A stretch of DNA of 44,148 nucleotides from Microthrixaceae bacterium (GTDB lineage Bacteria > Actinomycetota > Acidimicrobiia > Acidimicrobiales > Microtrichaceae): contig JAHRAZ010000061.1 in assembly GCA_020027475.1 (NCBI GenBank), positions 1 through 44,148 on the forward strand, in the 5' to 3' direction. This document shows, in pieces, positions 2,804-37,289 of this stretch. The notes under the pieces were generated by a model, which did no database searches, was not told where the DNA came from, and was given only the letters and a program-made list of their open reading frames with translations. The first letter of the stretch is position 1. Each line of letters opens with the position of its first letter. The position numbers and the translations under genes are program-made.

Positions 2804-2827
2804 TCCGGGTACTCGGCTGGGATCACC

Positions 2828-3478
2828 TCAGGTGTAGAAGGGGTTTTCCCCCGCTTCGTGATCCGTGGTGTCAATTACTTCCTTCACCTCGGGAATCGCT
2901 TCCATGATTGCGGAACGGATTCCATCCCTGAGGGTGGCAGCAGATGCGGCGCATCCCTGGCAGCCGCCTCCCATGGTGACGTACACATTGTTTTCCTCAT
3001 CCGCTCCGACGAACTGGGCAAAGCCGCCATGGGATGCGAGCATTGGATTGATCTGTAGTTCGAGAAGCTGGCTGACCTTGTCAGGCAACTCGCCGGTCAG
3101 ATCCACGTCGATTCCCTCAAAGGGATCCGGAGTGTTGGGATTGCGAATCACCAGCCCGCCCTGCGCCGAATTTCGCGGAACGTCGAGTTCGGCACCGCGA
3201 AGGCGTTCGACCGACTCGGACTCGATGGCAACCATGAGGTCGCCAACCGAATACCCGTGGTGGCCATCCGCTACTTCATCCGGTGATGCAAACGACAGAT
3301 CGTAGGTGTATTCGCGAGCGTTGGTGCCCGTGATTTCCACCCGGAGCGAAAGGGTGTCGGAGTCGGACTCTTCGTTGCGGATGGAGATTACCGATGCCAT
3401 CGCCTCGTCAGTGATGGTCATGGGATCCGCGTCGGGACCATCTGAGGTATCCGGGCTGAGGGGAGTGTCGAGGGTCAT
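2828..3478 (-). CDS. nfuA: NfuA-like Fe-S cluster carrier protein
   Basis: 216 residues. The C-terminal half (about 132-205) is a NifU C-terminal (Nfu) domain with the cluster-binding pair Cys173-x-x-Cys176 in GGGCQGC. The N-terminal half (about 20-120) looks like an A-type (IscA/HesB) scaffold domain without its cysteines, the NfuA arrangement of a degenerate A-type domain plus Nfu. The role is delivery of 4Fe-4S clusters to apoproteins. The ATG at 3478 follows an AGAGGA ribosome-binding site; Met20 is a possible alternative start. The gene lies downstream of dxs on the same strand with a 134-base gap holding two palindromes, so it probably has its own regulated promoter. Nearby clients could include MoaA (4Fe-4S) and, outside the window, the Fe-S enzymes IspG/IspH of the DXS pathway; this link is inference. 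Confidence 0.88.
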   Translation of the reverse strand: MTLDTPLSPDTSDGPDADPMTITDEAMASVISIRNEESDSDTLSLRVEITGTNAREYTYDLSFASPDEVADGHHGYSVGDLMVAIESESVERLRGAELDVPRNSAQGGLVIRNPNTPDPFEGIDVDLTGELPDKVSQLLELQINPMLASHGGFAQFVGADEENNVYVTMGGGCQGCAASAATLRDGIRSAIMEAIPEVKEVIDTTDHEAGENPFYT

Positions 3479-3535
3479 CTGGTTCCTCTTGGAGATCTGG
3501 CCGGCTGCCTTGGGGAGGCATGGCTCGGGCCTTGA

Positions 3536-3572
3536 TGTGGTTCACACCACAATAAATGTGGTTTGCACCATG
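3536..3572. promoter_or_regulatory. tandem operator-like palindromes upstream of nfuA
   Basis: Two copies of an ATGTGGTTnnCACCA-like element start at 3535 and 3556, exactly 21 bp (two helical turns) apart. The first is a perfect inverted repeat with arms TGTGGT and ACCACA around TCAC (3536-3551). The second has arms TGGT/ACCA around TTGC. They lie 57-95 bases upstream of the nfuA start, where a regulator of the Fe-S gene would bind. The protein is unknown; the sites do not obviously match a consensus I know. Confidence 0.45.
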
Positions 3573-3612
3573 CTAATAGTGAAAACTGTTCCGGTCACCC
3601 CGGGAATCCCAC

Positions 3613-5487: not shown

Positions 5488-5539
5488 CTGTGACCTCTTT
5501 GGCGAACGCCTCCCACGCTATCGAAGCTGACCATCGCGG

Positions 5540-9053: not shown

Positions 9054-10399
9054 CTCCCGCCGAAGCCCAGGCGTTGGCAGACGGAATCGTTGAGAGGTCA
9101 TTACCCGGTGAACAGCTCGAGGCGGTCGTGTCCTGGGCGCGAAACACTGAGGTTCGAGCGCATGGCGGAGAACTTGAACACCTGGTTTCCGCCGAAGAGT
9201 TCGGAGTTGGTGTCCGAGTGATAAGGGACGGCAAACAAGGTTTGTCCTGGGCCGGGGTGCTCGACTCCGCAGAACTGGCGCGTTGTGTTTCCGAAGCACG
9301 CGACAACAGCGCTTTCGGAACTCCGGATCCGAACGCCGGGCTTGCTCAATCCGATTCCGTGGTTCCCCAACAGCTGGATCTTGTGGATCGCGCACTTGCC
9401 GATGTCCCGACCATCGACAAGGTCGAGATTGCGCTGCGACTGGATCGGGCGATCACCGCAGCGGACAAGCGTGTGGTCGGCCACGAAGGAGCGGATTACG
9501 GCGATGGCATTGGCGTGTCCGCCATCAGTTCAACTGAAGGGATCCGCGCAGCCGAGGAGGAGACCTCCACATTCCTGGGGACCTACGCGCTCGCTTCCGA
9601 TGGCTCAGATACGACTACCGGTTTCGGCATGAGTGTCGGACGCGGTTTCGGCGACCTGAATGTCGATTCCACCGTTGAGGAAGCTGTAGAGCGCGCCGTG
9701 TTGCTGCTGGGTGCTCGCAAAGCTCCAAGCCGGAGGACAACCGTGATCCTTGATCCGTACGTGTGCAGTCAGTTCCTGGGGATTCTGGGGGACATGCTTT
9801 CCGCAGAAGAAGTTCTCCGCGGCCGATCGCCGTTCGCGGATCGTGTGGGAGAAGAAGTCGCATCGCCGTTGTTGACGCTCACGGATGATCCCCTCTGTGT
9901 GGAGGCCCCAACCGCATCCGGTGTCGACGGCGAAGGTCTGGCCTGCCGGCCCCTGACCCTCATCTCGGCCGGCGTCCTCGAAGGGTTCATGCACAATGCC
10001 TACACCGCTAGGGCAATGGGAACGCGGAGCACCGGTTCAGCTTCTCGTGCGTCACATCGCAGTGCTCCCGGGGTGGCCCCCAAGGTGTTGGGCGTTCGAG
10101 CCGGGGCATTCAACCCCTCCGAGATTCTCGCCGAGGTTGGTGACGGCCTTCTTGTGCATGAACTTGCTGGTCTTCACTCGGGCGTGAACCCGGTGTCGGG
10201 AGACATGTCCGTGGGAGCCGAGGGTGTGATCGTGCGTGGAGGTGAGCTGGCGGAACCGGTCCGCGAGATAACAATCGCGTCGACCCTCCAGCGAATGTTG
10301 ACTGATGTTGTTGCTGTCGGGAAGGACCTGCGTTTCTTCCCTTGGGAATCCTCAGGCGTAACGCTGGCTATCGCCGACATGACGATGTCCGGCAGTTGA
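9050..10399 (+). CDS. tldE: TldE/PmbA-like protein, paralogue 1
   Basis: 449 residues, the TldD/PmbA fold without the HExxxH motif, as in TldE. Typical segments: GVGVRVIRDGKQGLSWAG near the N-terminus, GRSPFADRVGEEVASP in the middle, and HSGVNPVSGDMSVGAEG near the C-terminus. In the known heterodimer TldE is non-catalytic and helps enclose the active chamber formed with TldD. The GTG start at 9050 overlaps the tldD stop, so it is the presumed primary partner of the TldD here. A second, clearly related copy follows 100 bases downstream. Confidence 0.9.
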   Translation: MTPAEAQALADGIVERSLPGEQLEAVVSWARNTEVRAHGGELEHLVSAEEFGVGVRVIRDGKQGLSWAGVLDSAELARCVSEARDNSAFGTPDPNAGLAQSDSVVPQQLDLVDRALADVPTIDKVEIALRLDRAITAADKRVVGHEGADYGDGIGVSAISSTEGIRAAEEETSTFLGTYALASDGSDTTTGFGMSVGRGFGDLNVDSTVEEAVERAVLLLGARKAPSRRTTVILDPYVCSQFLGILGDMLSAEEVLRGRSPFADRVGEEVASPLLTLTDDPLCVEAPTASGVDGEGLACRPLTLISAGVLEGFMHNAYTARAMGTRSTGSASRASHRSAPGVAPKVLGVRAGAFNPSEILAEVGDGLLVHELAGLHSGVNPVSGDMSVGAEGVIVRGGELAEPVREITIASTLQRMLTDVVAVGKDLRFFPWESSGVTLAIADMTMSGS

Positions 10400-10499
10400 G
10401 GGCAACAAGAATGATTTCGGCAAGATGGATTATTGCAACAACGAGTCCTGCTCCGGGGCCGTGTCAGTTCCGGACAGGAATTTCGGGCGGGGAGTGAAT

Positions 10500-11858
10500 G
10501 TGACAAAGCCGGGTAATGATCAGGAGTTGTTGAAGGTCGCACAAGACCTGGTTGACGCATCGGTTGGTACCGAACAGGTGGAGGTGATCCTGTCCAATGG
10601 TGAGTCCACCACCGTGAAAGTTCATTCCGGAGAGGTCGAGTCCCTGACTTCGGCTGGATCTGCCGCGGCGGGAATCCGCGTGATCCGTGATGGTCGATTG
10701 GGATTTGCCTCCTGTGGAACGCTGAATCCAATCGTGTTGAGCGAGACCCTGGATTCGGCCCGGGACAACTGTCGATTCGCCGAACAGGACGAACACAATG
10801 GCTTGGCCCTTGCCGACGGAGTGGATGTGGTGCCCCAGAATCTGTGGAGTGACTCCGTGCTTTCGACAACCGTGGATCAGAAGGTCGCTCTCGCGTTGGA
10901 TCTGGAGCGACAAGTCATCGGTCTCGACTCCCGGGTGAGTACCGCCCGATCCACTTCCTATGGCGACGGGTGGGGTCAGGCGGCCCTGGCGTCCACCAAT
11001 GGCATCTCCAGGGTCACCTCCGAAGCGAGTTGCTCGATCGGAACCCAGCCCCTGGCCCGCCACGGTGACGAAACCCAGATGGGGTGGGGTTCTGATGCCT
11101 CGCGGGATCCAGAGTCACTTGACCTGCAGAAGGTGGCGACCGAAGCCGTCGAACGGGCCACGAAGCTTCTTGGAGCCACCAAACCGTCATCGGTCAGGGT
11201 TCCGATCCTGCTCGAGCCCCGGCTGGCGGTGACCCTCTTCGGAATGGTCACGGGAATGTTGTCTGCGGAGGCCGTTCAGAAGGGTCGATCTCCTTTCGCC
11301 GATCGACTCGGTGAGCAGATCGGTTCCGAATTGTTGAACCTGGTTGACGATCCCACCAGATCGGAGTCCTTGGGTGCCGAGGAATGGGACGGTGAAGGTC
11401 TGGCTTGTAGGTCGAATCCCTTGCTCAAGGCGGGAGTTCTCCAGATGTTCCTGCACGACAGCACAACCGCCCGTCGCGCAGGTCTGCGTTCCACCGGCTC
11501 CGCCGTGCGTGCTGTTCGCGGGTTGCCTGCCCCGGGCCCGCAGCTGTTGGTGATGGAGCCGGGCGAGACATCCGCCCCGGAGATGCTCCGCGGTGTCACC
11601 ACGGGTCTGGCCGTGCAGTCCTTTGCCGGCATTCACTCCGGGGTCAATCCAGTTTCGGGCGACTTTTCAGTAGGCGCCGACGGAGTGATGATTCGCAACG
11701 GGGAACTCGCCGAACCCGTTCGCGAACTCACAATCGCTTCCACCATCCAGCGCTTGCTGCTTGGAGTGACCCGGGTGGCAGATGATTTCGAGTGGCTGCC
11801 GGGCGGAAGCGGTGCATGCTCCGTGTTGATTGAGGATGTGTCGGTTTCCGGGTCCTGA
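10500..11858 (+). CDS. TldE/PmbA-like protein, paralogue 2
   Basis: 452 residues. It is colinear with paralogue 1: AAGIRVIRDGRLGFASCG, GRSPFADRLGEQIGSELL, and HSGVNPVSGDFSVGADG occupy the same places, and it also lacks a zinc motif. The GTG at 10500 is preferred because GGGGAG ends 5 bases before it, and the length then matches paralogue 1; the frame is open back to an ATG at 10425 with an unconvincing, Cys/Asn-rich extension. The two copies are diverged by eye, so the duplication is not recent. It ends 3 bases before the convergent SAF gene. Either an alternative TldD partner or a separate complex is possible. Confidence 0.85.
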   Translation: MTKPGNDQELLKVAQDLVDASVGTEQVEVILSNGESTTVKVHSGEVESLTSAGSAAAGIRVIRDGRLGFASCGTLNPIVLSETLDSARDNCRFAEQDEHNGLALADGVDVVPQNLWSDSVLSTTVDQKVALALDLERQVIGLDSRVSTARSTSYGDGWGQAALASTNGISRVTSEASCSIGTQPLARHGDETQMGWGSDASRDPESLDLQKVATEAVERATKLLGATKPSSVRVPILLEPRLAVTLFGMVTGMLSAEAVQKGRSPFADRLGEQIGSELLNLVDDPTRSESLGAEEWDGEGLACRSNPLLKAGVLQMFLHDSTTARRAGLRSTGSAVRAVRGLPAPGPQLLVMEPGETSAPEMLRGVTTGLAVQSFAGIHSGVNPVSGDFSVGADGVMIRNGELAEPVRELTIASTIQRLLLGVTRVADDFEWLPGGSGACSVLIEDVSVSGS

Positions 11859-21951: not shown

Positions 21952-24900
21952 TCAGGACACCGCGGCGCCGGACCGGTTGATGGCGGCAGCGTCCGTTCCC
22001 AGGTAGGCAGCTATCACGGCCGGGTGATCCAGCACTTCCGCGGGTGTGCCTTCGAGCAGGACCTGTCCGAGTTCCATTGCCACAAGACGGTCGCACAATC
22101 CCGCCAGCAGCGGCATGTCGTGTTCGATCACAAGCATCGCCGCGCCGGTGTGTTCACAGATCTGTCGCAGTAGCGGACCCAACGCCTCTGTCTCGCGTTG
22201 GGCGACTCCGGCGGATGGTTCGTCGAGGCACATCACCACTGGTTCCTCGGCCAGCAGACAGGCAAGTTCCACGATGCGCCGGGTTCCGGTGGAGAGAACG
22301 GACACGGGGATGTTTGCGTAGGCTCCAAGCCCGAGCAGTCCGAGCAGGTCGTCCACCTTGGTGCTGGTCATGTTCTCTGACAGGTAGCTGGCAGGCTGGT
22401 GGGTGGCGTCAGCCACAAGCGACCGACTCGCAACCGTCCTTTCGCAAGCCACTGCCAGCACATCGCGAACACTCAGTGACGGAAACAGTCGGGCTTCCTG
22501 GAAGGTGCGACCAAGCCTGGCTCTGGCGCGTTCGTTCGGAGCCCAGTCAGTGATGTCCGTGTCGCGGAATGTGATGGTGCCTTCGTCAATTGTGTGGAAC
22601 CCTGAAATGCAGTCCATCAGCGTGGTTTTGCCGGCCCCGTTCTGTCCGATCAGCCCAACAATTTCACCGGGGCGAACTTCGAGGTTCACGTGAGAGAGTG
22701 CCTGGACGCCGCCGAAGCGTTTGGTGATGTCGGAACAAACGAGAATGGGTTCGCGCTCCTCGATCGGCCGGTCATCGACCGACACTGGCTCGAGGCGAGC
22801 CAAGTCGATCGCAGCGATCTCTTCGGATTCCTCTGAGTCGTCGCCCCCGCCGGCCCCTTCGATGAAGACAGAGCGGAGCAGATCCGGTCTTTCGATCAGC
22901 TCCCGGGTTGGGCCTTCGAAGCGAACGGTGCCCTTCTCCATGAAGACCGCACGTTCGGCCAGCGTAAGCGCCACGTTGATTGACTGCTCGACCACCACAA
23001 CGGTGATGCCATGAGCATTCATCTGTTTCACGACTCCGCACAAGGCTGAAACGATCATGGGGGACAGCCCCAACGACAACTCGTCGATGAGGATAACTTG
23101 CGGTCGCAGCAGCAATGTCATGGCCATTGCCAACTGCTGCTGTTCCCCACCCGAGAGGTCACCAGCCATCTGGTTTCTGCGTTCTTCGAGCACGGGGAAC
23201 AGGCCGTCCAGGTCCTCGAACGAGTCGTTGATTCGTTCGGAGTCTGTGCGGAATGTCCAACATGCCAACCGAAGGTGATCATGAACGGTCAGGGTGGGGA
23301 AAATCGCCTTGCCGCCGGGCATGAGAGCCAAACCCTGCCTGACGATTTGTTCGGGACTCATCCTGGAGATGTCGACATCACCGAGCATCACGGTGCCATT
23401 GTGGGGCGCAAGCCCACAAATGGCTTTGAAGATCGTGGACTTGCCGGCTCCGTTGGTGCCCAACAGGGCGACGATCTCCCTGTCCTGCACGTCCAGATCG
23501 ACGTCGAAGAGTATCTGGAGCTGGCCGTAGCTGACGTTGACCCCGGAAGCTGACAGCGCTGGGACTGCTGAACCTTCGGTGTTGCCGGGCGTGGGAATGC
23601 TCAGAATGGATGAATCGACAGGGTGCTTTGCGGCGGGGACCGGATCCGAATCCGGGACCTGATGCGGGCTTCCGTCGGTGGTCTTCGCATCTTGGTCCAC
23701 AACCACAGGTGAATCGTGATCCCCGGCAGCCGGTGATTCCGAGTCGTCGCTCTGGTCGTCGGAGTCCTCCTGCTCGCCGGTCGGCACAGGACTCAATGGT
23801 CGACCTTCGAGATCCAGTCCTTGGCGGGCGGCGAGGCGGGACAAGAAGAAGTCCCGAATACGGGCAGCCAGCCCGGCTAGTCCCGAGGGCACCAGCCAGA
23901 GCACGATCAGAACACCGAGACCGGAGGCCACCAGCCGCAGGATGTCGCTTGCGTCCTGGAGTCCTCGACCGCCTCCTGCACCGACGATGGCCCCGGGTAT
24001 GGAACCGAGTCCGCCAATGGTGGTGAGGGAGAAGACGTCCACGCTCATCGCGGGGGCATAGGAGCCACCGCGGGCTCCGTGGTTGACAAGCATGTGCAGG
24101 CCGCCCGCGAGGCCGGCGATTGCGCCGGAGAAAACGAATCCTGTCAACCGGATCCACATGGCGGGAACCGACGCTGCTTCTGCGGCTTTCATGTTGTCGC
24201 GCGATGCAAGTAGCAATCGTCCAGAGCGCGACCTGCGAACACCAACGGTGAGCATGACCACGAAGGCAAGGCATGCGAGGGTGAAGTAGAGCATGGCGCG
24301 CTCATCTTCGAGGTTGATTCGGCCCCAGAGAACCGGGCGTGCCACAGACTCCGGGATGATGGCGGGGAATACACTGGGGTTGAGAACGAAGGAGTCCAGT
24401 ACCACGGCGAAGCTCAGTGTCACCACCGCCAGGAACGGACCTTGGATGCGCAGCGCCGGGATTCCGAGAAGGAACGCCACGAATGCGCCGGTGGCCACGG
24501 CTACCGCCAGGGAGACAAAGAGGTCGGTGTTCCACTGGTTGATGAGGTTGCCCGCGACTATTGCCGCGGCCCCGACGATGGCGAACTGCCCGAGGCTGAT
24601 TTGTCCTCCCCACCCGGTCAGAACCACGAGGCTCACGCCGACAATCGCCCAGCAAACCATTATCGAACCGGTGAAGGATGCCCCGGGTTCGAGAATCATG
24701 GGAATGAGCACCACAGCGGCGACCAGCAACGCAGCCATGGACCACTTGGCGACACGGACCGGGGTCATTGCGGCGATCAAGGGACTCACGGGCCGGATCA
24801 GTTCGGCATCTTTCCATCCGCTATCAGCGTCGTGAGCCCGGGATCGACCGCGGGCCTGAGTGAGGAGTCCGATCAGGATCACCGCCAGAGTGACCACGGA

Positions 24901-25875
24901 GAGCATCTCGGGGTTGTTGGTGTTCCAGCGAATGGTCTGATCGAGAACCCCGAGGGCCATCGCAGCGCCGAACGCCTTGGGCATCGATTCCATCCGACCG
25001 AGAATCGCCGCTGCCAATGCTGCCAGTAGAACGTCGGGCCCAAGCATCACTGATGGGGCAATTCCCAGAGTGGGAGCTCGTAGTACGAGAGTTAGCGCTG
25101 CCAGGCATCCGGCGAGGGCCCACACAGCAGTCGTCAGGCGTTTGACCGGAATCCCGAGCAGTCTGGCCCGGTCGGTGTTCTCGGCGCTCGCCCGAATCGC
25201 GGTACCGGCCAGAGAGCGTCGCATGAACCATGCGAGGCTCATCACCACGATCGGAACCACGAACAGGGGAAGTAGATCGTTGCCATCCACCTTCACGGGT
25301 CCGAGATCGAAGTTGAAGGTGGACAGGGGTGTGGTGAACGGTGGGATCAACAATCCGGATGCACCGAATATCCGTTCGGGGATAAGCAGCTCGAGACCAC
25401 CCAGAAGTTGCGCAAGTCCGATGGTTGCCACGGTCAGCACCAGGCGGGGAGCCTTGGCGAATCGCCTTATCACGGTGAACTCTGCGAGAGCACCTACGGC
25501 GAGGCCCACAAGGGGTCCGGCAATCAGCGAGATCCAGTAGGGCCATTCCCAGGTCTGGAACAAATGCACAGCGAAGGTTCCGCCGATTCCGGCAATGGCC
25601 ATGTTCGCGAAGTTGATCACCCGGTTGGCACGCCAGATGAGGATGAGGCCTACGCTGGTCAACCCGGTGGTGGAGCCGAAGATGATCCCGAGAGCCACAA
25701 CTCCGACAGGTACCCCCTGTGGCAACAGCGCCGCTGCGACGGCCCACACCGCGAGTGCGGCGAGGGCGCCGATCGTGATCTTGGTGGCCTTGTTGGGCTT
25801 CCATGGCGGTGTTTCGGACTCCGGTGAATCCTGGGGCCCTGCGGTGAGTTCGTGCTCGTCGATTCCCGTGGTCAT
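21952..25875 (-). CDS. four-domain LivH-LivM-LivF-LivG fusion, branched-chain amino acid-type ABC transporter
   Basis: 1307 residues holding a whole importer core except the binding protein. Residues 35-340 are LivH-like permease (EFTVIRRFAKAPRLVL; RASAENTDRARLLGIP). Residues 375-680 are LivM-like permease (GWGGQISLGQFA, 421-432; LLLASRDNMKAAEAA). An acidic Asp/Ser/Pro linker (690-770) leads to a LivF-like ATPase: Walker A GTNGAGKST (806-814), signature LSGGE (907-911), Walker B Asp-Glu 931-932. A second acidic linker (1008-1042) leads to a LivG-like ATPase: Walker A GQNGAGKTT (1077-1085), non-canonical signature LSTGT (1194-1198), Walker B with DEPSAG (1218-1223). There is no internal stop or frame change. 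It lies 25 bases after the binding-protein gene. HAAT-family importers take up amino acids, amides, urea or related solutes; the substrate here is unknown. Confidence 0.93.
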   Translation of the reverse strand: MTTGIDEHELTAGPQDSPESETPPWKPNKATKITIGALAALAVWAVAAALLPQGVPVGVVALGIIFGSTTGLTSVGLILIWRANRVINFANMAIAGIGGTFAVHLFQTWEWPYWISLIAGPLVGLAVGALAEFTVIRRFAKAPRLVLTVATIGLAQLLGGLELLIPERIFGASGLLIPPFTTPLSTFNFDLGPVKVDGNDLLPLFVVPIVVMSLAWFMRRSLAGTAIRASAENTDRARLLGIPVKRLTTAVWALAGCLAALTLVLRAPTLGIAPSVMLGPDVLLAALAAAILGRMESMPKAFGAAMALGVLDQTIRWNTNNPEMLSVVTLAVILIGLLTQARGRSRAHDADSGWKDAELIRPVSPLIAAMTPVRVAKWSMAALLVAAVVLIPMILEPGASFTGSIMVCWAIVGVSLVVLTGWGGQISLGQFAIVGAAAIVAGNLINQWNTDLFVSLAVAVATGAFVAFLLGIPALRIQGPFLAVVTLSFAVVLDSFVLNPSVFPAIIPESVARPVLWGRINLEDERAMLYFTLACLAFVVMLTVGVRRSRSGRLLLASRDNMKAAEAASVPAMWIRLTGFVFSGAIAGLAGGLHMLVNHGARGGSYAPAMSVDVFSLTTIGGLGSIPGAIVGAGGGRGLQDASDILRLVASGLGVLIVLWLVPSGLAGLAARIRDFFLSRLAARQGLDLEGRPLSPVPTGEQEDSDDQSDDSESPAAGDHDSPVVVDQDAKTTDGSPHQVPDSDPVPAAKHPVDSSILSIPTPGNTEGSAVPALSASGVNVSYGQLQILFDVDLDVQDREIVALLGTNGAGKSTIFKAICGLAPHNGTVMLGDVDISRMSPEQIVRQGLALMPGGKAIFPTLTVHDHLRLACWTFRTDSERINDSFEDLDGLFPVLEERRNQMAGDLSGGEQQQLAMAMTLLLRPQVILIDELSLGLSPMIVSALCGVVKQMNAHGITVVVVEQSINVALTLAERAVFMEKGTVRFEGPTRELIERPDLLRSVFIEGAGGGDDSEESEEIAAIDLARLEPVSVDDRPIEEREPILVCSDITKRFGGVQALSHVNLEVRPGEIVGLIGQNGAGKTTLMDCISGFHTIDEGTITFRDTDITDWAPNERARARLGRTFQEARLFPSLSVRDVLAVACERTVASRSLVADATHQPASYLSENMTSTKVDDLLGLLGLGAYANIPVSVLSTGTRRIVELACLLAEEPVVMCLDEPSAGVAQRETEALGPLLRQICEHTGAAMLVIEHDMPLLAGLCDRLVAMELGQVLLEGTPAEVLDHPAVIAAYLGTDAAAINRSGAAVS

Positions 25876-25900
25876 GCGCCGTCAGCCCTCAGCAGTCGGG

Positions 25901-27655
25901 TCACCGCGTGGATTTTGGATTTCCCGCCGGCCATTTGCCGATCGGGAATCTACGACCCCCGTTGGAATCGATGTAGGCACCTTTGCTGCGGGTGGCCACC
26001 GACACTGCATTGGGATTCCAATGTACTTCTCGGGCATCGTCGGAGGTGCTGTAGTCGTTTGGGCCGAATCCCCATGTGCCGTACGGTCCGGTACGGCGGG
26101 GGTAATCGAACATTCCCTTTTCGAAACTTGCGGGATTCAAGTTCGGTCCCGCCATCTGGACGCCGATGGCCAGCAGATAGAGCTGGTTGTAGATGATGTC
26201 AACTGCGATCGAGGGTTCGTCCGGTCGCACTGACTTGTAGGCACGATAACCAAGTGACTGGTTGTCCGCCTGGGTGGGTCCGGTGAAGGACACCCCGAAT
26301 GCCCGCTGCCACACCCGTTGGTCCATGATCTGGCCGACCAGGTCGTAGTCCATCAGGGCAACACCACTGACCACTATCTCCGGGAAGTAGCGCTCCTTGG
26401 CCATGTTGGCGGTGAGGAAGTTGAGGAAAATCGGATCGCAGCCACAGATCAATGTGGTGATGTTGTTGGCTTTCATCTTGCTCAGCGCGGTCTTGGCATC
26501 GCCAGAACTGTTCACGGTGAGCTGGTACTTGACGTCGAGTGCCAGATCTCCGCCGTGTCCGGTTTTGTTCAGGACGCCCTTTCCGGCGTTGACACACTCC
26601 TGATACTGCGCGTTGGACGGGGCAATGACTGCCAGTCGGCGCTTTTGGGCGTTCAGCGGGGCGCCGGCATTTTCAGCATTGCGACCGCCCATCTTCTTTC
26701 CGTAGTAGGAAAAGACGCTCTCCACGATGGTTGAGCAATCCGTGAACTGGGTCCAGGAGTAGGGGCGGCGTTTGGCGAGCCAGTTGCGCGACACGAAGGG
26801 TGCTCCGGTATTGATCACTCCCTTTGCCGACAGAGCATCCGCGTAGGCGGGTGTGATCGCCGATACGTCGGCGAAAGCCTTGATCTCCTGTGCGACCTTC
26901 AGCGCATCAGCCTGAGCACCCTCCTGGCCTCGATCAAGGGCTTCCTGAAGAGGATCGCCCTTGCCGTCGAATATCTCCAGTTTGAGCTTGCGCCCATAGA
27001 ATTGAAACCTCTGGTTGAGGTAGTCGCTGATACCTTCGATCGTGCGGATGATTTTCTGAGGCGGTTCGTTGGGAATGTGGGCTCCAGCGCTCTTGGCGAT
27101 GGCATCGCCGAGCCCGTTGGTGAAACCGTCGACTCGAACCGCTACCTTGATCTCCTTGTCAGAGACTCCGCGGTGGGTGGCTCCGCCGTTTGACCCGGAG
27201 AACTGGATGCACGGAGGGGAGTACGGATCACCCTTGATCTGATGGGATCCGCATCCGGCTACCTTGGTCGGCCCAGAGTTCTTTCCGCCGCCTGAACCTG
27301 AGCCGGACCCGCCTGATCCGCCGCCTGAACCTGAGCCGGACCCGCCTGATCCGGACCCGCCTGATCCGCCGCCTGAACCAGACCCGCCTGAGCCCGAGGA
27401 TCCACCTGTTCCATCCAGAGCGGAGGCGCCTTCGCCGGTTCCGTCGCCGTCTACGCCGCCTTCGCCGTCTACGCCGCCTTCGCCGCCTTCGGGGTCATCC
27501 AGGTAGTCACCGATCGATCCGGCCTCACCTGCATCGACTCCGTTGGAATCCGGAGCCTGACTTGGAACGAGCAGCACTACTGCCAAGAAGATGGCCGCGA
27601 AACCGATCAGCGGGCCATAGCCGCGAAACAGTCGGTCTTTGAATGGAGAACTCAC
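25901..27655 (-). CDS. membrane-tethered type-1 periplasmic solute-binding protein
   Basis: 584 residues. A basic N-terminus (MSSPFKDRLFRGYG) and one uncleaved-looking membrane segment (14-31) replace the usual lipobox. A long extracytoplasmic stalk follows: acidic Gly/Asp/Glu (40-75), then almost pure Gly/Ser (83-125). The ligand-binding domain of the Peripla_BP_6/LivJ class spans about 165-575, starting at SDKEIKVAVRVDG; Cys135 and Cys149 may form a disulfide at its edge. The GTG at 27655 has AGAGGA 7 bases upstream and overlaps the upstream stop by 4 bases. It is the natural partner of the LivHMFG fusion encoded next. Transport substrate unknown. Confidence 0.88.
   Translation of the reverse strand: MSSPFKDRLFRGYGPLIGFAAIFLAVVLLVPSQAPDSNGVDAGEAGSIGDYLDDPEGGEGGVDGEGGVDGDGTGEGASALDGTGGSSGSGGSGSGGGSGGSGSGGSGSGSGGGSGGSGSGSGGGKNSGPTKVAGCGSHQIKGDPYSPPCIQFSGSNGGATHRGVSDKEIKVAVRVDGFTNGLGDAIAKSAGAHIPNEPPQKIIRTIEGISDYLNQRFQFYGRKLKLEIFDGKGDPLQEALDRGQEGAQADALKVAQEIKAFADVSAITPAYADALSAKGVINTGAPFVSRNWLAKRRPYSWTQFTDCSTIVESVFSYYGKKMGGRNAENAGAPLNAQKRRLAVIAPSNAQYQECVNAGKGVLNKTGHGGDLALDVKYQLTVNSSGDAKTALSKMKANNITTLICGCDPIFLNFLTANMAKERYFPEIVVSGVALMDYDLVGQIMDQRVWQRAFGVSFTGPTQADNQSLGYRAYKSVRPDEPSIAVDIIYNQLYLLAIGVQMAGPNLNPASFEKGMFDYPRRTGPYGTWGFGPNDYSTSDDAREVHWNPNAVSVATRSKGAYIDSNGGRRFPIGKWPAGNPKSTR
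27285..27400 (-). repeat. 33-bp tandem repeat coding the Gly/Ser stalk
   Basis: Two exact 33-bp units (27288-27320 and 27321-27353), then degenerate copies to about 27400. On the minus strand they encode GSGGSGSG-type sequence in the binding protein. The repeat probably allows stalk-length variation between strains. Confidence 0.85.
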
Positions 27656-29226
27656 GCTATTTTCCTCTTGTTCTTGCGTCCGACCAAACGGTCTCCCATG
27701 GAAAGCCCGGCTGCGCCGAGAAGGGCCACAAGTCCCACAGCGATTGCCGGCCCGCTACTGGGACTTGTCAATGGTGACTTGGTGCCGGGTGCTGCGATGT
27801 CCTCGAGGTCCGGCTCCTCGCTGTCTGAGAACTCCTCGGGGAGGGCGGTCTCGTCGAACGAGCCGTCGTCGAAGTCGTCGCCGAACGATGCGTCGTCCTC
27901 GAACGATGCGTCATCGAAGTCATCGCTGTATCCGAAGTCATCGCCGCCGAAGTCATCGCCGCCGAAATCATCGCTGTATCCGAAGTCATCGCCGCCGAAG
28001 TCATCGCCGCCGAAGTCGCTGGAGGTGGTGTTCGCAGGCTGATCTCCGGGTTCGGGCTCGTCCGCTGGTTGCTCGGCGGCTTCCGCTGGCGGAGCTGGTG
28101 CAATTGGAGGCGATGAGTAATCTGTCTTGTCAGTGGTCGCAGTGGCACCACCCACGGAAAGCACGACCTGTCCCGCGCCCCCCAAGGCGTTGTCCAGTGC
28201 ATCAATGATCGTCCATCCGATCGCCCGGGTACAGTCTTCATCCAAGGACTTGTTCCGTACGTCATTCATGAACTCCGACCCGAGCAGCGGTGTCAGGAGT
28301 TGCTTCCCTATAGGGGCGTTGGTGAGCACGAATCCCATGGGCGAGATACTGATGCCTTCGCCGACATCGGCTGGTTGTACTTCAGGAATCTGAAACTTGA
28401 GGCCCAAGCCGGAGAACAGTTGTCCGACTGCCCATTTGAAATCGTTGAATGTCTTGGCGGTGTTGTCGGCGTTCTGGGTGATGCCGAACAGACGAACGCT
28501 GTCGAAGGTGAACGTTGCGTTTTCTGACTCCTCCGCGCCGGAGCGCTTCTCGGCGGTCCAATGCGGGTTCTTGATCTCGATGATCCCGCCCATGAGCGAC
28601 ACACGCTTGGCCCAGGACTCAGCCTTGGCAATTCTGACCCCGTTGCGGAACTCGGTGGTGGAGGCTGTTTCGGCGCCGTGGACCTTCAGAAGCACGAGGT
28701 CGGCCGTGATGATGTCGGTGGATGCCTTGGACCAAGGCTGCTCCGTTGCCCAAGCGTGTTGATTGCCGATCACCTGCTTGGATTGCGACGTGCCCTGCAT
28801 GGCGGGCCAGAAAACCTCACTGCTGGCACCCTCGCTTGCACCCTCTGTGAAGGAGTCAACGCTTGTTTTTGGAGGCAGGGATGCCGTGTCCCACATCGGC
28901 AGAACCGTCCCATCGCATTGCGGCAGGGCAAAGATCGGTTCCAGTAGTCCGAGGTCGAGAGCCCGGCCTTCCGCTTGGGCTGTTATGTCGCGATAGCTGG
29001 CGACAGATCTTCCGTATGTGGCGCCCAGAGTGGCACCGCCCGAGCCCAGTTCTACGCTGACGGAGCTCGCCCAGGCATTGGCTCCACCTCTCACGATCTC
29101 GCCGGAACCGCCAGGAGCGGAACCTTCTTGCGCCGATGCGGGGGTCGCCGAGGCGAAGAGTCCCAACGCACAAACGAACAGAGCCAGGCTCCCCGTCTTT
29201 TTCAAAAGCGCACTCGTGCGTGCCAC
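27652..29226 (-). CDS. secreted, C-terminally anchored protein with acidic DDFGG repeats
   Basis: 524 residues from the GTG at 29226, which has a strong AGGGGAAGG site and starts an ideal signal peptide: MARTSALLKK, hydrophobic core, cleavage near ASA-Q (32/33). A GTG at 29262 is a weaker alternative. The body (35-370) is a globular, unrecognised domain. Then come a Pro/Ala/Glu linker, an acidic repeat region with two copies of a 16-residue unit built from DDFGG and DDFGYSD, and a very acidic stretch. The C-terminus is a membrane segment (about 492-510) with a basic tail (GRKNKRK), so the protein is held on the outer face of the membrane. No LPxTG motif. It is the first gene of the transporter operon. 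Confidence 0.75.
   Translation of the reverse strand: MARTSALLKKTGSLALFVCALGLFASATPASAQEGSAPGGSGEIVRGGANAWASSVSVELGSGGATLGATYGRSVASYRDITAQAEGRALDLGLLEPIFALPQCDGTVLPMWDTASLPPKTSVDSFTEGASEGASSEVFWPAMQGTSQSKQVIGNQHAWATEQPWSKASTDIITADLVLLKVHGAETASTTEFRNGVRIAKAESWAKRVSLMGGIIEIKNPHWTAEKRSGAEESENATFTFDSVRLFGITQNADNTAKTFNDFKWAVGQLFSGLGLKFQIPEVQPADVGEGISISPMGFVLTNAPIGKQLLTPLLGSEFMNDVRNKSLDEDCTRAIGWTIIDALDNALGGAGQVVLSVGGATATTDKTDYSSPPIAPAPPAEAAEQPADEPEPGDQPANTTSSDFGGDDFGGDDFGYSDDFGGDDFGGDDFGYSDDFDDASFEDDASFGDDFDDGSFDETALPEEFSDSEEPDLEDIAAPGTKSPLTSPSSGPAIAVGLVALLGAAGLSMGDRLVGRKNKRKIA
27918..28018 (-). repeat. 48-bp tandem repeat (with 15-bp sub-repeats) coding the acidic region
   Basis: A 48-bp unit occurs twice (for example GCTGTA at 27925 and 27973), itself made of 15-bp GCCGCCGAAGTCATC units. 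It encodes DDFGG, DDFGG, DDFGYS on the minus strand. Confidence 0.88.
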
Positions 29227-29306
29227 TGCCTTCCCCTTTCCTCCGGGCTTCCCGACCCGCACCGCTCAATGTAACGCTCCCGAGCCGCTTCCAGGCCAGA
29301 ATCGCC

Positions 29307-29449: not shown

Positions 29450-31051
29450 TCAATCCAGACTCTTGAGTGCGCGCCGATCCAGCTTCTGAGCGGTCGTCAG
29501 CGGGAGGTTGTCGATGTACCTGATCTGCTCCGGCAACTTGTGGCGGGCCAAGGTGTTGGCTGCGAAGTGCCTCAGGTCCTCGAGCGAGGGTCGATCAGCT
29601 TTTGACTCCACCACGACGACGGCCAATCCGATTTCTCCCATGACTTCATCGGCGCGAGGGGTGACCGCGACCTGTCGCACGGCGGGATGTTCGCTGAGGA
29701 CGGATTCCACTTCCGTGGGATGGATGTTGTAGCCGCCTCGGATGTACATGTCGCCTGTTCGCCCTCGCAACACATGGTTGCCCTGTGGATCCACGATCGC
29801 CAGATCTCCACTGCGAAGCCACCCGTCCTTTGTGAACGCGGCAGCGGTGGCTTCGGGGTCGCCGAGGTATCGAGACATCACGGCGTCGGACCGAATCTGC
29901 AATTCCCCTTCTACACCGGGCGGCAGCTCCTCACCGGACTCGTTGGCGATTCTTGCCTCGACGCCGATTCGGGGCTTGCCGATCCCCTCAACGATGTCGG
30001 TGCCGGGTGAGGTATCCCGGGACAAACCCACACCACCCGACTCGGTGGAGCTCCAGCGCACTGAGTAGGTCACTGCCAAACGTTCACATGCTTCGGAGAT
30101 CAGGGAGGCAGGAGAGGGAGCGCCACCGGCGATGACCAAATTCAGCGACGACAACGCTGCGGGCTCCAGGTGCGGCGAGCGAAGAATCAGCGCAAGTTGT
30201 GGGGCGACCACGCCGAGGGCGGGCATGTGATGTTTACTCAACAACTCGATTGCGGCATTCGCCTTCCAGCGGTCCATCACATGAAGAGTGACGCCGACCC
30301 GGAGGTACCAGCCGAACTTGAGCACGAACCCCACATGGGCAAACTGGGTGGAAGAGATCATCGCCGAGCCGCCACCCCAGATGTCTTGGGCGTTCGCTCC
30401 AAGGTCGATGTCGCGAACCGCCTGTGCCTGGCGTTCCAGGAACAACGCTGCTTTTGGTGACCCGGTGGTACCCGAAGTGAAACAGGCCGCAAACGGACGC
30501 TGTGGTCCGCGCTCGTGAGGCGGGACAGTGGTTTCAGAAACCGGGTTTTCCGCCTGCGGGCCGCCGAGATGGATCAGTCCTGAAGCGCCGAGTCTGGCCA
30601 ACTCGGGATGGGGCAGTGCTGGTGGGGAGGGCTGTGCTGGTGGGGAGGGCTGCGTCCGGGAGCATTGCTGCGTTTGTGAGGTGGTGGTTGTTGGACTCCG
30701 GTCTTGCCCACCGGCGCTGCTCGAGGGGTCCGTCGGCCCGTCGAGGATCAGATCCGGTCGTATCAGGTCGGTCATGGAGGCGCGTTCTGCGGCACCGGCA
30801 ACGGGGCTGATCCCGGCGAAAAGTGCACCGACACGGTCCGCGGCCACAGCGGCCACAACCCATTCGATGCCCGATGGCATCCGCAGCGCCACCACCGAAC
30901 CGACTCCAACGCCGAGATGGGCGAGTTGACGGGCCACAACTTCGGACCGCTCGAGAAGCTCAGCATGGGTCAGCTCTGCGGAAGCGGTGCACAGCAGTGT
31001 CTTGTCACCGAATCTCCGGGCGGTTTGCGCCACCACTTCGCTCAGCATCAT
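29450..31051 (-). CDS. AMP-dependent acyl-CoA synthetase / ligase
   Basis: 533 residues of the adenylate-forming class I family; it activates a carboxylic acid to acyl-AMP and then acyl-CoA. Motifs: P-loop TSGTTGSPK (192-200), RWSSTESGG (A5-like), the hinge region SGDLAIVDPQGNHVLRGRTGD and GYNIHPTEVE. The C-terminal catalytic Lys is in TTAQKLDRRAL, where the usual Gly before Lys is Gln. Residues about 108-155 form a Ser/Thr/Gln/Pro-rich insert not found in typical family members. The ATG at 31051 is preferred; the open frame extends 38 codons further. It is divergent from the SDR gene by 51 bases. Substrate unknown; nothing points specifically to MenE. Confidence 0.87.
   Translation of the reverse strand: MMLSEVVAQTARRFGDKTLLCTASAELTHAELLERSEVVARQLAHLGVGVGSVVALRMPSGIEWVVAAVAADRVGALFAGISPVAGAAERASMTDLIRPDLILDGPTDPSSSAGGQDRSPTTTTSQTQQCSRTQPSPPAQPSPPALPHPELARLGASGLIHLGGPQAENPVSETTVPPHERGPQRPFAACFTSGTTGSPKAALFLERQAQAVRDIDLGANAQDIWGGGSAMISSTQFAHVGFVLKFGWYLRVGVTLHVMDRWKANAAIELLSKHHMPALGVVAPQLALILRSPHLEPAALSSLNLVIAGGAPSPASLISEACERLAVTYSVRWSSTESGGVGLSRDTSPGTDIVEGIGKPRIGVEARIANESGEELPPGVEGELQIRSDAVMSRYLGDPEATAAAFTKDGWLRSGDLAIVDPQGNHVLRGRTGDMYIRGGYNIHPTEVESVLSEHPAVRQVAVTPRADEVMGEIGLAVVVVESKADRPSLEDLRHFAANTLARHKLPEQIRYIDNLPLTTAQKLDRRALKSLD
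30616..30651. repeat. 18-bp exact tandem duplication inside the ligase insert
   Basis: GTGCTGGTGGGGAGGGCT occurs at 30616-30633 and again at 30634-30651. On the minus strand it encodes the SPPAQP/SPPALP part of the low-complexity insert. Confidence 0.9.
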
Positions 31052-31102
31052 CTCGATCGTATCCACGCACGGGGAATCGCCTGACCGCGATACGGTTCCG
31101 CC

Positions 31103-31909
31103 GTGCTCACACCACCCGAATTCGACATGAGGGGCAAGCGGGCGCTGGTCACGGGATCGGCACAAGGAATCGGAGAAGCAACTGCGCGGGCGCTGGCCGC
31201 CAGTGGTTGCCTCCTCGTCCTTTGTGATCGCAAAGCACCAGAGCTGGCCGCCGTGGCCGCCGATCTCGGGGAGAGCACCGAGGTGTTGTCACATGACCTT
31301 GACGTTCGTGACGGTGCAGCGGTGATGCAAATGCTGGACCACGTCGGCTCCGTCTGGGGTGGGCTGGATGTGGTGGTCAACAATGCCGGCGGGGGATTCT
31401 TCGCCGCTGTTGAGGACGTCAACGACCGGGGTACCGCCGCTCTCATCGCCGAGAATTTCACACAGGTTCTCGACGTGAGCAGGTCTGCCCTCGAATTGAT
31501 GGACTCAGGTGGTTCCGTAGTGAACATCACCTCTGTGGAGGCCCACAGGGCCGGCCCCGGATTCGGGATATATTCCGCCATGAAGGCAGCCGTGGAGAAT
31601 CTGACCAAGACCCTTGCCCTGGAGTGGGCTGAGCGCCGGATCCGCGTGAATGCGGTGGCGCCGGACATGATTCCCACACCGGGTGATGCCGGACTGGCCG
31701 AGGCAGCGGGAGCCACGTCGGGCGCCGGTTCGTGGTCGATGACTCCCTGGCCAGAGGAAGGTACTCCGGCTGATGTGGCCTCTGCGGTTCTGTTCCTGGC
31801 ATCCGACATGAGCCGGTTCGTGACCGGAACCACCATCGCAGTAGATGGTGGCACTTCAGCCGCGGCCGGCTGGAAACGTCGCAAGCAGGACGGAGTCTGG
31901 GTGCTCTAG
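31103..31909 (+). CDS. short-chain dehydrogenase/reductase (SDR)
   Basis: 268 residues, classical SDR. Cofactor motif TGSAQGIG (17-24), NNAG (93-96), catalytic Ser144, Tyr157 and Lys161 (YSAMK). DR at 42-43 (LCDRK) after the second strand suggests NAD(H) preference through the Asp. The C-terminal FVTGTTIAVDGGTSAAAGW is typical of family members that act on hydroxyacyl or steroid-like alcohols, but the substrate is unknown. The GTG at 31103 is used; an ATG at 31127 is a shorter option. It is divergent from the acyl-CoA synthetase, and its stop codon interlocks with that of the convergent antiporter gene. Confidence 0.9.
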   Translation: MLTPPEFDMRGKRALVTGSAQGIGEATARALAASGCLLVLCDRKAPELAAVAADLGESTEVLSHDLDVRDGAAVMQMLDHVGSVWGGLDVVVNNAGGGFFAAVEDVNDRGTAALIAENFTQVLDVSRSALELMDSGGSVVNITSVEAHRAGPGFGIYSAMKAAVENLTKTLALEWAERRIRVNAVAPDMIPTPGDAGLAEAAGATSGAGSWSMTPWPEEGTPADVASAVLFLASDMSRFVTGTTIAVDGGTSAAAGWKRRKQDGVWVL

Positions 31910-33838: not shown

Positions 33839-35017
33839 TCAGGCCGCAGCCACCTCGGCTGTCGTGGAGCGCCGCCAGCCCGGGCCGCGGAACACATGGC
33901 TCAAACGATCTTTCCAGTTGCGCGACTCCACCACGTCATGGGCAATGTCGGTGTATTCGTGTGTTGCCACGACAATCGGATTGAAGGTGTCGATGTTCTT
34001 GGTGAGGCCGTACACCACGGGTTCGTCCTCGGGTTCGAATGTTCCGAAGAGTTTGTCCCAGATGATCAGGATGCTGCCGTGGTTGCGGTCGAGGTACGCC
34101 CGGTTGGAACCGTGGTGGACGCGGTGATGCGAGGCCGTGTTCAGGACTGCCTCGGCCGGCCCGATGGATCTGATCAACTCGGTGTGAATCCAGTATTGAT
34201 AAATGAGGTTCACACCTCGCGCCCGCTCGATCACCGTGGGGTTCAGCCCCAGTAGCGAAAGGAGCCCATAGGGCACGAACAGTCCGAGAGCCTCGGCGAC
34301 CGGCTGTCGAAGGGCAGTGGAGAGGTTGTAATGCTCGCTCGAGTGGTGGACCACATGAACGGCCCAGAGGAAACGGGTCTCGTGCATCATCCTGTGATTC
34401 CAGTAATAGATGAAGTCCCATCCGGCGATCGCCGCCAGGCTCGGGATCACCCCGGTTCCCCAGTCAGGGAGGACCCGCTTGTCGAAGAGCTTGCCGGCCA
34501 TGGTTCGATTCGCCCAGGTTCCGGCGGCCACAGCGACTCCGGCAGCAATGGAGGTGAGGGCTGCTCGGCCGCCGATCTTGCGGGCGAGGCGCTTCATTCT
34601 TCGGTTTCTGGGCTGCACGGACTCGGCGACATCGGTGCCCGGCTGTGACTCTTCGTCCCCAGCCCCGGTCGTGGCGTTGATTCCGGATGGTTCACCCTCC
34701 AGCGGAATGCTTCCCGCGTCGAGGTCGATGGATCTGACCCATGCATCTGCAAGTACCGCAGCCACCGCAGCGGCACCTGCGACACCGATGACGGCCTTGC
34801 CTCGCCAAGATCTCGCCGGATCGAGCTTCAGTGAGATCGGTCGGATGATGAGCGGAACGACCAGGCTTCCGACGCCCATCGACAGGCTGGCGATCGTGTC
34901 CGCCATCTCGTAGTCACCGCCCCGGGGAGCGCGATCGTCCTCGGTGTGCTTCATCCACCACGCCTCAGCGCCCATCGTGGAGAAGTAGAAGGGGATCGCC
35001 GCCACGGTCAGGTCCAT
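33839..35017 (-). CDS. fatty-acid hydroxylase / sterol desaturase superfamily protein
   Basis: 392 residues. The di-iron His clusters are all present: HRMMH (208-212), HVVHH (221-225) and HHRVHH (297-302), plus His313. Membrane segments flank them. An N-terminal part (1-100) carries two to three hydrophobic stretches, and a polar, acidic insert (about 97-140, with DLDAGSIPLEGE) precedes the catalytic half, making the protein longer than many bacterial members. It uses O2 and a reductase to hydroxylate or desaturate a lipid chain in the membrane; the lipid is not known. The ATG at 35017 is chosen over an upstream TTG. No reductase partner is visible nearby. Confidence 0.88.
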   Translation of the reverse strand: MDLTVAAIPFYFSTMGAEAWWMKHTEDDRAPRGGDYEMADTIASLSMGVGSLVVPLIIRPISLKLDPARSWRGKAVIGVAGAAAVAAVLADAWVRSIDLDAGSIPLEGEPSGINATTGAGDEESQPGTDVAESVQPRNRRMKRLARKIGGRAALTSIAAGVAVAAGTWANRTMAGKLFDKRVLPDWGTGVIPSLAAIAGWDFIYYWNHRMMHETRFLWAVHVVHHSSEHYNLSTALRQPVAEALGLFVPYGLLSLLGLNPTVIERARGVNLIYQYWIHTELIRSIGPAEAVLNTASHHRVHHGSNRAYLDRNHGSILIIWDKLFGTFEPEDEPVVYGLTKNIDTFNPIVVATHEYTDIAHDVVESRNWKDRLSHVFRGPGWRRSTTAEVAAA

Positions 35018-35065
35018 GGAGGCAAGATACAACCGAAGGTCAAAAGGTGACGGCTCGAAGCTGCA

Positions 35066-35782
35066 TCACTCGGTCATAGCGGCCACCAAGGGACCGAATT
35101 CCGCCGTTTCGCGTTCGCGGGCAGCTTGCACCGCGTCGATTCTGGCGGCGGTGAGCAACCTCTTTGTCGCCATGAGTGGTCCGAGCGGCAACCCGGCGAT
35201 GTGGCGAGCCATCCCCATCGCCGTGTTCATGAGTTCTGTTGGCGGCACGGCTTTGAGGGCAATGCCACACTCAACCGCTTCTTCTGCCGAGAGCCACGGT
35301 TCGGTGTAGAGGATCTCCGATGCACGCTGCCAGCCCATGATCTGCGGCATCAGGAGGCTGGCCGCTGCTTCGGTGGTGACCCCGAGGCTTATGAAGGGAA
35401 CCTTCAGTCGTGCCTCGGTGGACATGTAGACGAGATCGCAGTGCATGAGGAGAGTCATGCCGATTCCGACACCCACGCCGTTGACTGCGGCGATCAGCGG
35501 CTTCGGAAATGCTTCGGCCACGGGTATGAACTGCTCGTATCCTGGTTCGAGGCCTTCGAGGCAAGATGGGTTGTTGAGCTCGGACAGGTCCTGGCCTGCG
35601 GTGAAAGCGCGGCCCTTGCCAGTGAGCACAGCACAATGGATGGCGTCGTTCTCCGCAGCCGCCGCAAGTGCGCTTGCAGTAGCGACCCAGAGTTCCTGAT
35701 TGAACGCATTGAGTGCATCCGGCCGATTGAGAGTGATCAAGCACACTCCCCCTGCGGTTTCGATCTCGAGCAAATTGCTCAT
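35066..35782 (-). CDS. enoyl-CoA hydratase/isomerase family protein, isomerase-like active site
   Basis: 238 residues, crotonase fold. The CoA/oxyanion segments are GKGRAFTAGQDLSE (55-68) and NGVGVGIGMTLLMHCDL (101-117). The two Glu residues of true hydratases are missing: the first site reads GIGMT, and PFISLG takes the place of PEILLG. Instead Glu138 in TTEAAASLLMP aligns with the catalytic Glu of delta3,delta2-enoyl-CoA isomerases (PEGxSSxxxP). The ATG at 35782 has AGGGGG 8 bases upstream. It is divergent from the aminotransferase and lies 48 bases upstream of the hydroxylase gene, in the same direction, so the two may be co-transcribed. Confidence 0.86.
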   Translation of the reverse strand: MSNLLEIETAGGVCLITLNRPDALNAFNQELWVATASALAAAAENDAIHCAVLTGKGRAFTAGQDLSELNNPSCLEGLEPGYEQFIPVAEAFPKPLIAAVNGVGVGIGMTLLMHCDLVYMSTEARLKVPFISLGVTTEAAASLLMPQIMGWQRASEILYTEPWLSAEEAVECGIALKAVPPTELMNTAMGMARHIAGLPLGPLMATKRLLTAARIDAVQAARERETAEFGPLVAAMTE

Positions 35783-35951
35783 GTGTCGCCCCCTTGGGTG
35801 CTGACACCATCGGAATCCCGAGGATCTGGACCCTCTTGTGTGTTGTTGCCGGCATCGGTGGTTGTTGGAGGCCGGCAAACAGGGTTGTATGGACCGCACG
35901 AGTTGTACGTCCGGCCGGGCGTGCAGCATTGGACCATCGGAGGATCCTACG

Positions 35952-37289
35952 GTGGAAGACCCAAGAATTCCCCAATCAGCGACCAACCATGTGTTTCATT
36001 CCTGGTCGACACATCCGCAGTTGGATCTTCCGGAGATAGTCGGCGGATCGGGTTCGACATTCTGGGTCTCCAATGGCGATCGGTACCTGGACTTCTCCAG
36101 CCAGTTGGTGAACCTGAATCTTGGGCACCAGCATCCTCGATTGGTGGAAGCGGTTGTCTCCCAGGCGCGGCAGCTCTGCACCGTGGCTCCCAGTTTTGCC
36201 AATTCCGAGCGCACTGAGGCCGCCAGATTGATAGCGGAGCGGGCCCCGGGGGATCTCAACTCTGTGTTCTTCACCAACGGCGGAGCCGAGGCGATCGAAA
36301 ATGCCATGCGAATGGCGAAGCTGGCGACCGGGCGACCGAAGGTTCTCAGCGCGTACCGGAGCTACCACGGCGCCACCGCAGGAGCCATTGCTCTCACGGG
36401 GGAACCGAGAAGGTGGGCATCCGAGCCGACGATCGGTGCAACGGTGAAGTTCTTCGGTCCATATCTCTACCGTTCGGCCTTCGATGCCGACACCACCGTT
36501 GAGGAGTGCGATCGTGCGCTTGGCCATCTGGAGTCGGTGATCGAGATGGAGGGACCCCATTCGATTGCGGCGGTGTTCGGAGAAACCGTGGTGGGCACCA
36601 ACGGTGTGCTGGTCCCACCGGACGGTTATCTGGCCGGGGTTCGCGACCTGTGCGACAGACACGGAATCTTGATGGTTGCCGACGAGGTAATGGTGGGCTT
36701 CGGAAGGCTTGGTGAGTGGTTCGGAGTTGACCGCTGGGGCGTGGTTCCCGACCTGATCGCCTTTGCGAAGGGAGTGAACTCCGGATACGTACCACTCGGC
36801 GGAGTACTGATCCACGATCGGGTGGCGGCGCAATTCTCGGATCGTGCTTACCCCGGGGGACTCACATACAGCGGACATCCACTGGCGTGTGCTGCTGCGG
36901 TGGAGTCGATTCACATCTTCGAGGACGAGCAGATTCTCCAAGGGGTGCGGCGGCGCGCCGAGGAGGTGATCGAACCGGCCCTGGCCGACATGGCCCGGCG
37001 CCATCCCTCGGTGGGAGAGGTACGCGGATTGGGTGCATTGCACGCTGTGGAACTGGTGAAGAACAGCGCCACTCGCGAGCCTCTGGTCCCATTCAACGCT
37101 TCTGGTGCAGAAGCAGCCCCGATGACCGAGGTGTTGACTGACCTGAAGTCCCGCGGGGTTTGGCCAATTGCACACTTCAACGGCATTCATCTGGCTCCGC
37201 CGCTGGTGATCACCGATGAAGAACTGAAATCGGGTTTGGCCGCGTTGGACGAGTCTCTTTGCGTCGCCGATGGATTCGTGGTCGATTGA
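35952..37289 (+). CDS. class III (omega-type) PLP-dependent aminotransferase
   Basis: 445 residues. PLP-site residues: GGAEAIENAMRMA (110-122), SYHGATAGA (137-145), Asp244 (VADEVMVGFGRLG) and the Schiff-base Lys273 (FAKGVNSGYVPLGG). The GTG at 35952 is chosen because CGGAGGA ends 7 bases upstream and homology starts soon after; an ATG at 35889 would add a Cys/Ser-rich extension with no such site. The substrate-binding segment resembles those of taurine- or beta-alanine/4-aminobutyrate-pyruvate aminotransferases, but I cannot choose. It is divergent from the isomerase-like gene. Confidence 0.9.
   Translation: MEDPRIPQSATNHVFHSWSTHPQLDLPEIVGGSGSTFWVSNGDRYLDFSSQLVNLNLGHQHPRLVEAVVSQARQLCTVAPSFANSERTEAARLIAERAPGDLNSVFFTNGGAEAIENAMRMAKLATGRPKVLSAYRSYHGATAGAIALTGEPRRWASEPTIGATVKFFGPYLYRSAFDADTTVEECDRALGHLESVIEMEGPHSIAAVFGETVVGTNGVLVPPDGYLAGVRDLCDRHGILMVADEVMVGFGRLGEWFGVDRWGVVPDLIAFAKGVNSGYVPLGGVLIHDRVAAQFSDRAYPGGLTYSGHPLACAAAVESIHIFEDEQILQGVRRRAEEVIEPALADMARRHPSVGEVRGLGALHAVELVKNSATREPLVPFNASGAEAAPMTEVLTDLKSRGVWPIAHFNGIHLAPPLVITDEELKSGLAALDESLCVADGFVVD

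Follow-up and report, generated by a model that had tools for sequence, protein, structure and literature searches.

A Liv-type ABC importer with a membrane-tethered binding protein and a candidate accessory surface protein in Microthrixaceae and other Actinomycetota

Organization of the locus

We analysed a contiguous stretch of 44,148 nucleotides from a Microthrixaceae bacterium (hereafter the window). On the minus strand, between positions 21952 and 29226, the open reading frames and a check of the sequence place three genes in the order SURF, BP and importer, which encode a membrane-anchored surface protein (SURF), a tethered substrate-binding protein (BP) and a fused ABC importer, respectively. 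The features of the cluster and its 5' neighbour are as follows:

27652-29226, minus: SURF, predicted secreted, membrane-anchored surface protein of 524 aa from the GTG at 29226 (open reading frame; family alignment A1)
29131-29226, minus: SURF signal-peptide-like N-terminal segment, residues 1-32, with a hydrophobic stretch at residues 6-24
28117-29094, minus: SURF beta-rich domain, predicted extracellular, residues ~45-370 (conservation; AlphaFold model)
27763-28116, minus: SURF acidic low-complexity linker with DDFGG repeats, residues 371-488 (composition; homologue comparison)
27697-27753, minus: SURF C-terminal transmembrane (TM) helix, residues 492-510, with a basic tail after it (hydropathy)
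27652-27655, minus: 4-base overlap (GTGA) of SURF stop and BP start (sequence)
25901-27655, minus: BP, TM-tethered substrate-binding protein of 584 aa, Peripla_BP_6 (Pfam; alignment A6)
27566-27622, minus: BP N-terminal TM helix, residues 12-30, motif RLFRGYGPL...LVPS (conserved across the family)
27254-27559, minus: BP Gly/Ser-rich stalk, residues 33-134, 74% G/S/T/P/A
25904-27253, minus: BP ligand-binding domain, starting C-x(n)-Q-x-GDPYSPPC (Pfam; alignment A6)
21952-25875, minus: fused importer, 1307 aa (Pfam, NCBIfam)
29450-31165, minus: acyl-CoA ligase (AMP-binding), 5' of the cluster (Pfam)

The SURF frame is open to 29262, which is merely its first start codon; judged from the sequence, the GTG at 29226 is the likelier start, because a GGAGG/AAGGGG stretch resembling a ribosome site (GGAGGAAAGGGG) precedes it. 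Overlapping or abutting SURF-BP junctions are found in the homologues as well, and BP and the importer are spaced by 25 bases. The three reading frames, the 4-base overlap and the 25-base gap given in the first-pass annotation are all borne out. Promoter and terminator scans gave scores no better than those of shuffles. The genome to which the window belongs encodes a single SURF, yet several other Liv-type permeases.

The importer runs from LivH-like and LivM-like permease domains to LivF/UrtE-like and LivG/UrtD-like ATPase domains (Pfam, NCBIfam), with two PF02653 (BPD_transp_2) stretches (E 6.9e-50), two PF00005 (ABC_tran) stretches, and PF12399 (BCA_ABC_TP_C) in one of the ATPases. The best NCBIfam models for its ATPase domains were UrtE and UrtD, with the LivG model also scoring high; one domain lies just above the UrtE cut-off, and the cut-offs of UrtD (just below) and LivG were missed. 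Because UrtE is so narrowly passed and UrtD so narrowly missed, we describe the importer as Liv/Urt-type, short of a safe call on substrate. Its two LivH/LivM permease domains and two LivF/LivG-type ATPases, together with a Peripla_BP_6-type binding protein, place the system in the HAAT/Liv class.

BP matches PF13458 (Peripla_BP_6) with an E-value of 1.8e-9 and 38.2 bits, against a gathering cut-off of 31.7. Across its family, the TM motif (RLxRGYGPL...LVPS), the stalk, and the start of the domain (CxxxxQVPGDPYSPPC) are conserved, the stalk being ~100 aa here and 58-160 aa among homologues. In 16 of 17 BPs there is no cysteine ahead of the domain, and the lone exception sits inside the TM helix; since no cysteine precedes its domain, BP has no lipobox. 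The earlier suggestion that BP is fixed by a TM segment and a Gly/Ser stalk instead of a lipid anchor thus agrees with the single helix at residues 12-30. This arrangement points to a type II topology with the domain outside. The predicted structure model of BP has a pLDDT of 38.6.

SURF itself has no match in Pfam or NCBIfam. An AlphaFold model built on eight sequences depicts the ~330-aa domain as beta-rich at middling confidence, with a whole-chain pLDDT of 60.5 and values by block within residues 45-370 of roughly 50-94. In the family alignment, the residues of the domain that never vary are of the types G, P, A, W, R, and C. Two conserved cysteines (C104 and C332) could form a disulfide. 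A TM helix and a basic tail are present in every untruncated SURF homologue of A1, and a type I topology with the domain outside is predicted. Foldseek and VIA-align searches with the model found no confident structural relative, and profile searches of the PDB with SURF, BP, and a distant SURF branch (described below) returned no relative for any of them. The only hits were weak and porin-like (best Foldseek E 1.4e-3, TM 0.13-0.19, VIA Z at most 6.4); we read them as reflecting an antiparallel-sheet arrangement in common and left them unused.

Conservation of the three-gene module

Protein searches of 248 genomes of the order identified SURF in 28; the weakest matches (below about 30 bits) do not belong to the family and were left out of the counts. 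Contig ends truncate three loci; in the others (20/20, window included), SURF is immediately followed on the same strand by BP and a Liv-type importer, and the arrangement is the same in all 15 further loci found through SURF in class- and phylum-level searches. The gene-neighbourhood search that the first-pass annotation had suggested therefore gives adjacency in 35/35 informative SURF-found loci. Certain lineages encode the importer as two genes, permease-permease and ATPase-ATPase, and beyond SURF, BP, and importer no neighbour is conserved in most loci. A contig search with a closer SURF alignment returned nine loci, Microthrixaceae MAGs among them, and homologous loci with named records come from Microthrixaceae and other Actinomycetota MAGs. 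Because the three-gene layout is kept in dozens of genomes, it is not a product of chance.

SURF-BP fusions and shared phylogeny

We also identified two loci in which SURF and BP are encoded as one protein. In L180 (G423:C286; positions 1969-5538), a single open frame of 1190 codons comprises SURF with its TM helix, then another TM helix, a stalk, and BP; L181 (G416:C593; positions 1607-4099) has the same arrangement as far as the contig end that cuts its frame. The two frames, which come from two genomes of one genus, share 61% identity over the SURF part. The fusion runs through the membrane-proximal ends of both proteins, and would leave the C-terminus of SURF and the N-terminus of BP both facing the cytoplasm, with the two ectodomains together outside, which is compatible with direct contact between them.

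The converse search, in which a BP profile was run against 298 genomes and the flanks were fetched, identified a well-supported clade of six TM-tethered BPs that keep the importer and have no SURF; more distant BPs have no SURF either. As this clade retains its importer, SURF is not strictly required for transport. On a BP tree of 72 rows, SURF presence and absence requires two changes, against a mean of 16.7 after shuffling, and these can be read from the tree as one gain and one loss. Pairwise distances of SURF and BP are correlated (r=0.84, with values as high in 0 of 2000 permutations), though such distances contain shared species history, so that we give more weight to the fusions and to the behaviour of paralogs: copies within a genome (e.g. 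three in G003) are each closest to the matching system elsewhere rather than to each other. Taken with the 35/35 adjacency, the fusions in two genomes and the tracking of BP phylogeny by SURF uphold the initial view of one co-evolved three-gene system.

In L139, a locus without SURF, the stretch ~100-750 bases upstream of BP encodes a different secreted protein of ~208 aa, rich in Gly and Thr and unmatched in Pfam, which may be a replacement for SURF. In L153, a ~310-aa lipoprotein is encoded directly 5' of a distant TM-tethered BP; it contains the lipobox-like sequence LAACSSS and is likewise unmatched in Pfam.

A putative docking or loading role for SURF

We consider it fairly likely that the locus encodes a Liv/HAAT-type ABC importer with a dedicated third component, SURF, acting beside BP; SURF is best read as an undescribed accessory subunit of Liv-type importers. 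SURF would present its beta-rich domain outside the cell, following a secreted N-terminus, and remain anchored through a flexible linker and the C-terminal TM helix, with BP held in the same membrane by its N-terminal helix and flexible stalk. There, SURF may bind loaded or empty BP, or the substrate itself, such that a tethered rather than freely diffusing BP would be kept loaded and brought to the permease. We hypothesize that SURF, beside BP, helps with docking or loading or provides a scaffold.

The strongest competing explanation, which we regard as unlikely yet deserving of weight, is that SURF is a structural or assembly partner, which either keeps the tethered BP stable or in position within the cell wall or aids assembly of the complex. 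A fast-evolving domain with few invariant polar residues would suit such a role, as would fusion through the membrane-proximal ends and the tolerated loss of SURF in one clade; however, a conserved domain of this size with its cysteine pair is not obviously needed for a purely mechanical function. Far less probable is a sensor subunit that signals BP occupancy across the membrane by way of the basic tail, for while the TM helix and a basic cytoplasmic tail are conserved, this tail has merely about 13-23 residues and lacks a signalling domain, and the cluster has no conserved regulator gene beside it.

A distant branch and the choice-of-anchor P superfamily

Weak SURF matches led to a distant branch (alignment A10), whose profile aligns with that of A1 with a probability of 98.5% (E 1.9e-15). 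Its members also have a signal-like N-terminal stretch and a C-terminal TM helix, and they are usually encoded last, at the 3' end, in Liv-type operons of a different kind (permease-ATPase-ATPase-SURF2). All 20 fetched loci of this branch (L204-L223) are in Liv-type operons, as are seven more (L166, L167, L168, L171, L183, L187, and L188). A similar small TM protein is encoded after the distant-branch SURF in L166, L167, and L171.

The NCBIfam model for choice-of-anchor P proteins (NF040603.2) matches 8 of the 22 sequences of the A1 set at E-values up to 0.1, and 13 of 21 members of the distant branch at E-values up to 0.01. SURF of the window gives no match to this model at E-values up to 1, and among ten SURF homologues that were rescanned only those of L043 (30.3 bits) and L052 (39.2 bits) exceed its curated cut-off of 27 bits. 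The matches by A1 members and the alignment of the A1 and A10 profiles together establish homology at the level of the superfamily. Within 1.5 kb of generic choice-of-anchor P loci of the phylum, ABC genes are absent in 28 of 30 cases, and the two loci with ABC genes nearby are SURF-like. Since generic members thus lie mostly away from ABC genes, we regard the transporter-linked proteins as transporter-dedicated branches of the superfamily. The concern that the surface-protein family might occur mostly without the transporter was unfounded for SURF itself, and holds for the wider superfamily.

It is this distribution of generic members that could suggest an independent surface function for SURF (in adhesion or the cell wall), with the operon shared merely for expression. 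We judge such independence slightly less probable still than the sensor, given the invariable adjacency, the SURF-BP fusions and co-phylogeny, and the repeated occurrence of distant-branch members within other Liv operons; a reading of SURF as an operon hitchhiker was rejected on the strength of the fusions and the co-phylogeny.

Substrate and neighbouring genes

The first-pass annotation had proposed that the acidic DDFGG protein might capture a divalent metal or metal cofactor and guide it to BP, which we consider very improbable: the linker of the window protein does have a net charge of about -37, but its DDFGG tandem repeats (27915-28017) are confined to the closest relatives, the linker is near neutral in most homologues (outside the family of the window it is mostly G/S/T/P/A-rich, with 0-13% acidic residues), the domain has no conserved D/E/H set, and the established cargoes of Liv/HAAT systems are amino acids, amides, urea, and organic acids, not metals.

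An acyl-CoA ligase is encoded upstream of the cluster in the window and in L039, L040, L043, and L059, that is, five ligases in 165 kb, where genome density (577 genes in about 65 Mb) would predict about 1.5, though four of these ligases belong to genomes that are related. We regard this ligase as a lineage-specific neighbour rather than a core part. Other neighbours of cluster members are mixed (TetR, SDR, P450, acyl-CoA dehydrogenase, and mce), and lipid- or acyl-CoA-type genes are close to some other members too. As acyl-CoA ligases adjoin the cluster, a carboxylic acid that is CoA-activated after import may be put forward as a weak lead on the cargo.

Elsewhere in the window, we identified a short-chain dehydrogenase gene (31103-31909, plus strand), whose relatives occur near SURF at varying positions in six other loci, and genes of fatty-acid hydroxylase and enoyl-CoA hydratase type (33839-35986, minus strand) upstream of the acyl-CoA ligase and a Na+/H+ exchanger. 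Three PmbA/TldD-type metallopeptidase genes lie in a row at 7662-11858 (plus strand), and positions 42548-44104 contain long tandem-repeat arrays of ~24 bases (ACGACGACCACGG...) that probably code for Thr/Pro-rich repeats.

Implications and comparison with known systems

Searches of the literature found no description of the three-gene system or of choice-of-anchor P proteins, and the system is not described in the family libraries searched, in keeping with its early designation as an undescribed system. Tentatively, and with somewhat less assurance than we attach to SURF as a dedicated third component, we propose a new class of ABC-importer subunit, in which a stalked, choice-of-anchor-P-like SURF would dock with a stalked BP to form a permanent extracellular capture-and-delivery complex with a Liv-type permease. 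Such a class would span at least two distantly related branches of Liv-type importers, occurring in Acidimicrobiia as well as in other classes of actinobacteria. If this is correct, a second extracellular membrane protein kept over deep actinobacterial lineages would represent an unrecognised class of importer subunit, and a function could be assigned to some of the choice-of-anchor P proteins, a superfamily that has a name in NCBIfam and no stated function. Moreover, the Acidimicrobiia are abundant and seldom cultured, and their uptake physiology is made directly testable.

What is new at this locus is a Liv/HAAT importer variant whose BP is TM-tethered and which has an additional dedicated surface protein. 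A textbook Liv-type importer consists of one binding protein, two permeases, and two ATPases, and importers of this class (TC 3.A.1.4: branched-chain amino acid, urea, and amide) share the Peripla_BP_6, BPD_transp_2, LivF/UrtE-like, and LivG/UrtD-like parts that we identified here. In the system of the window, however, the permeases and ATPases are joined in one chain of 1307 aa, BP is tethered by a TM helix and stalk rather than a lipid anchor, and SURF is present as an extra component. OpuA-type importers have a binding domain fused to the permease and thereby held at the membrane; the binding protein is membrane-held in both systems, whereas here BP is separate from the permease and is partnered or fused with SURF. 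More generally, choice-of-anchor P proteins are, like the SURF homologues, membrane-anchored and extracellular, and what sets SURF apart from the sampled generic members, most of which lie away from ABC genes, is its dedication to a transporter.
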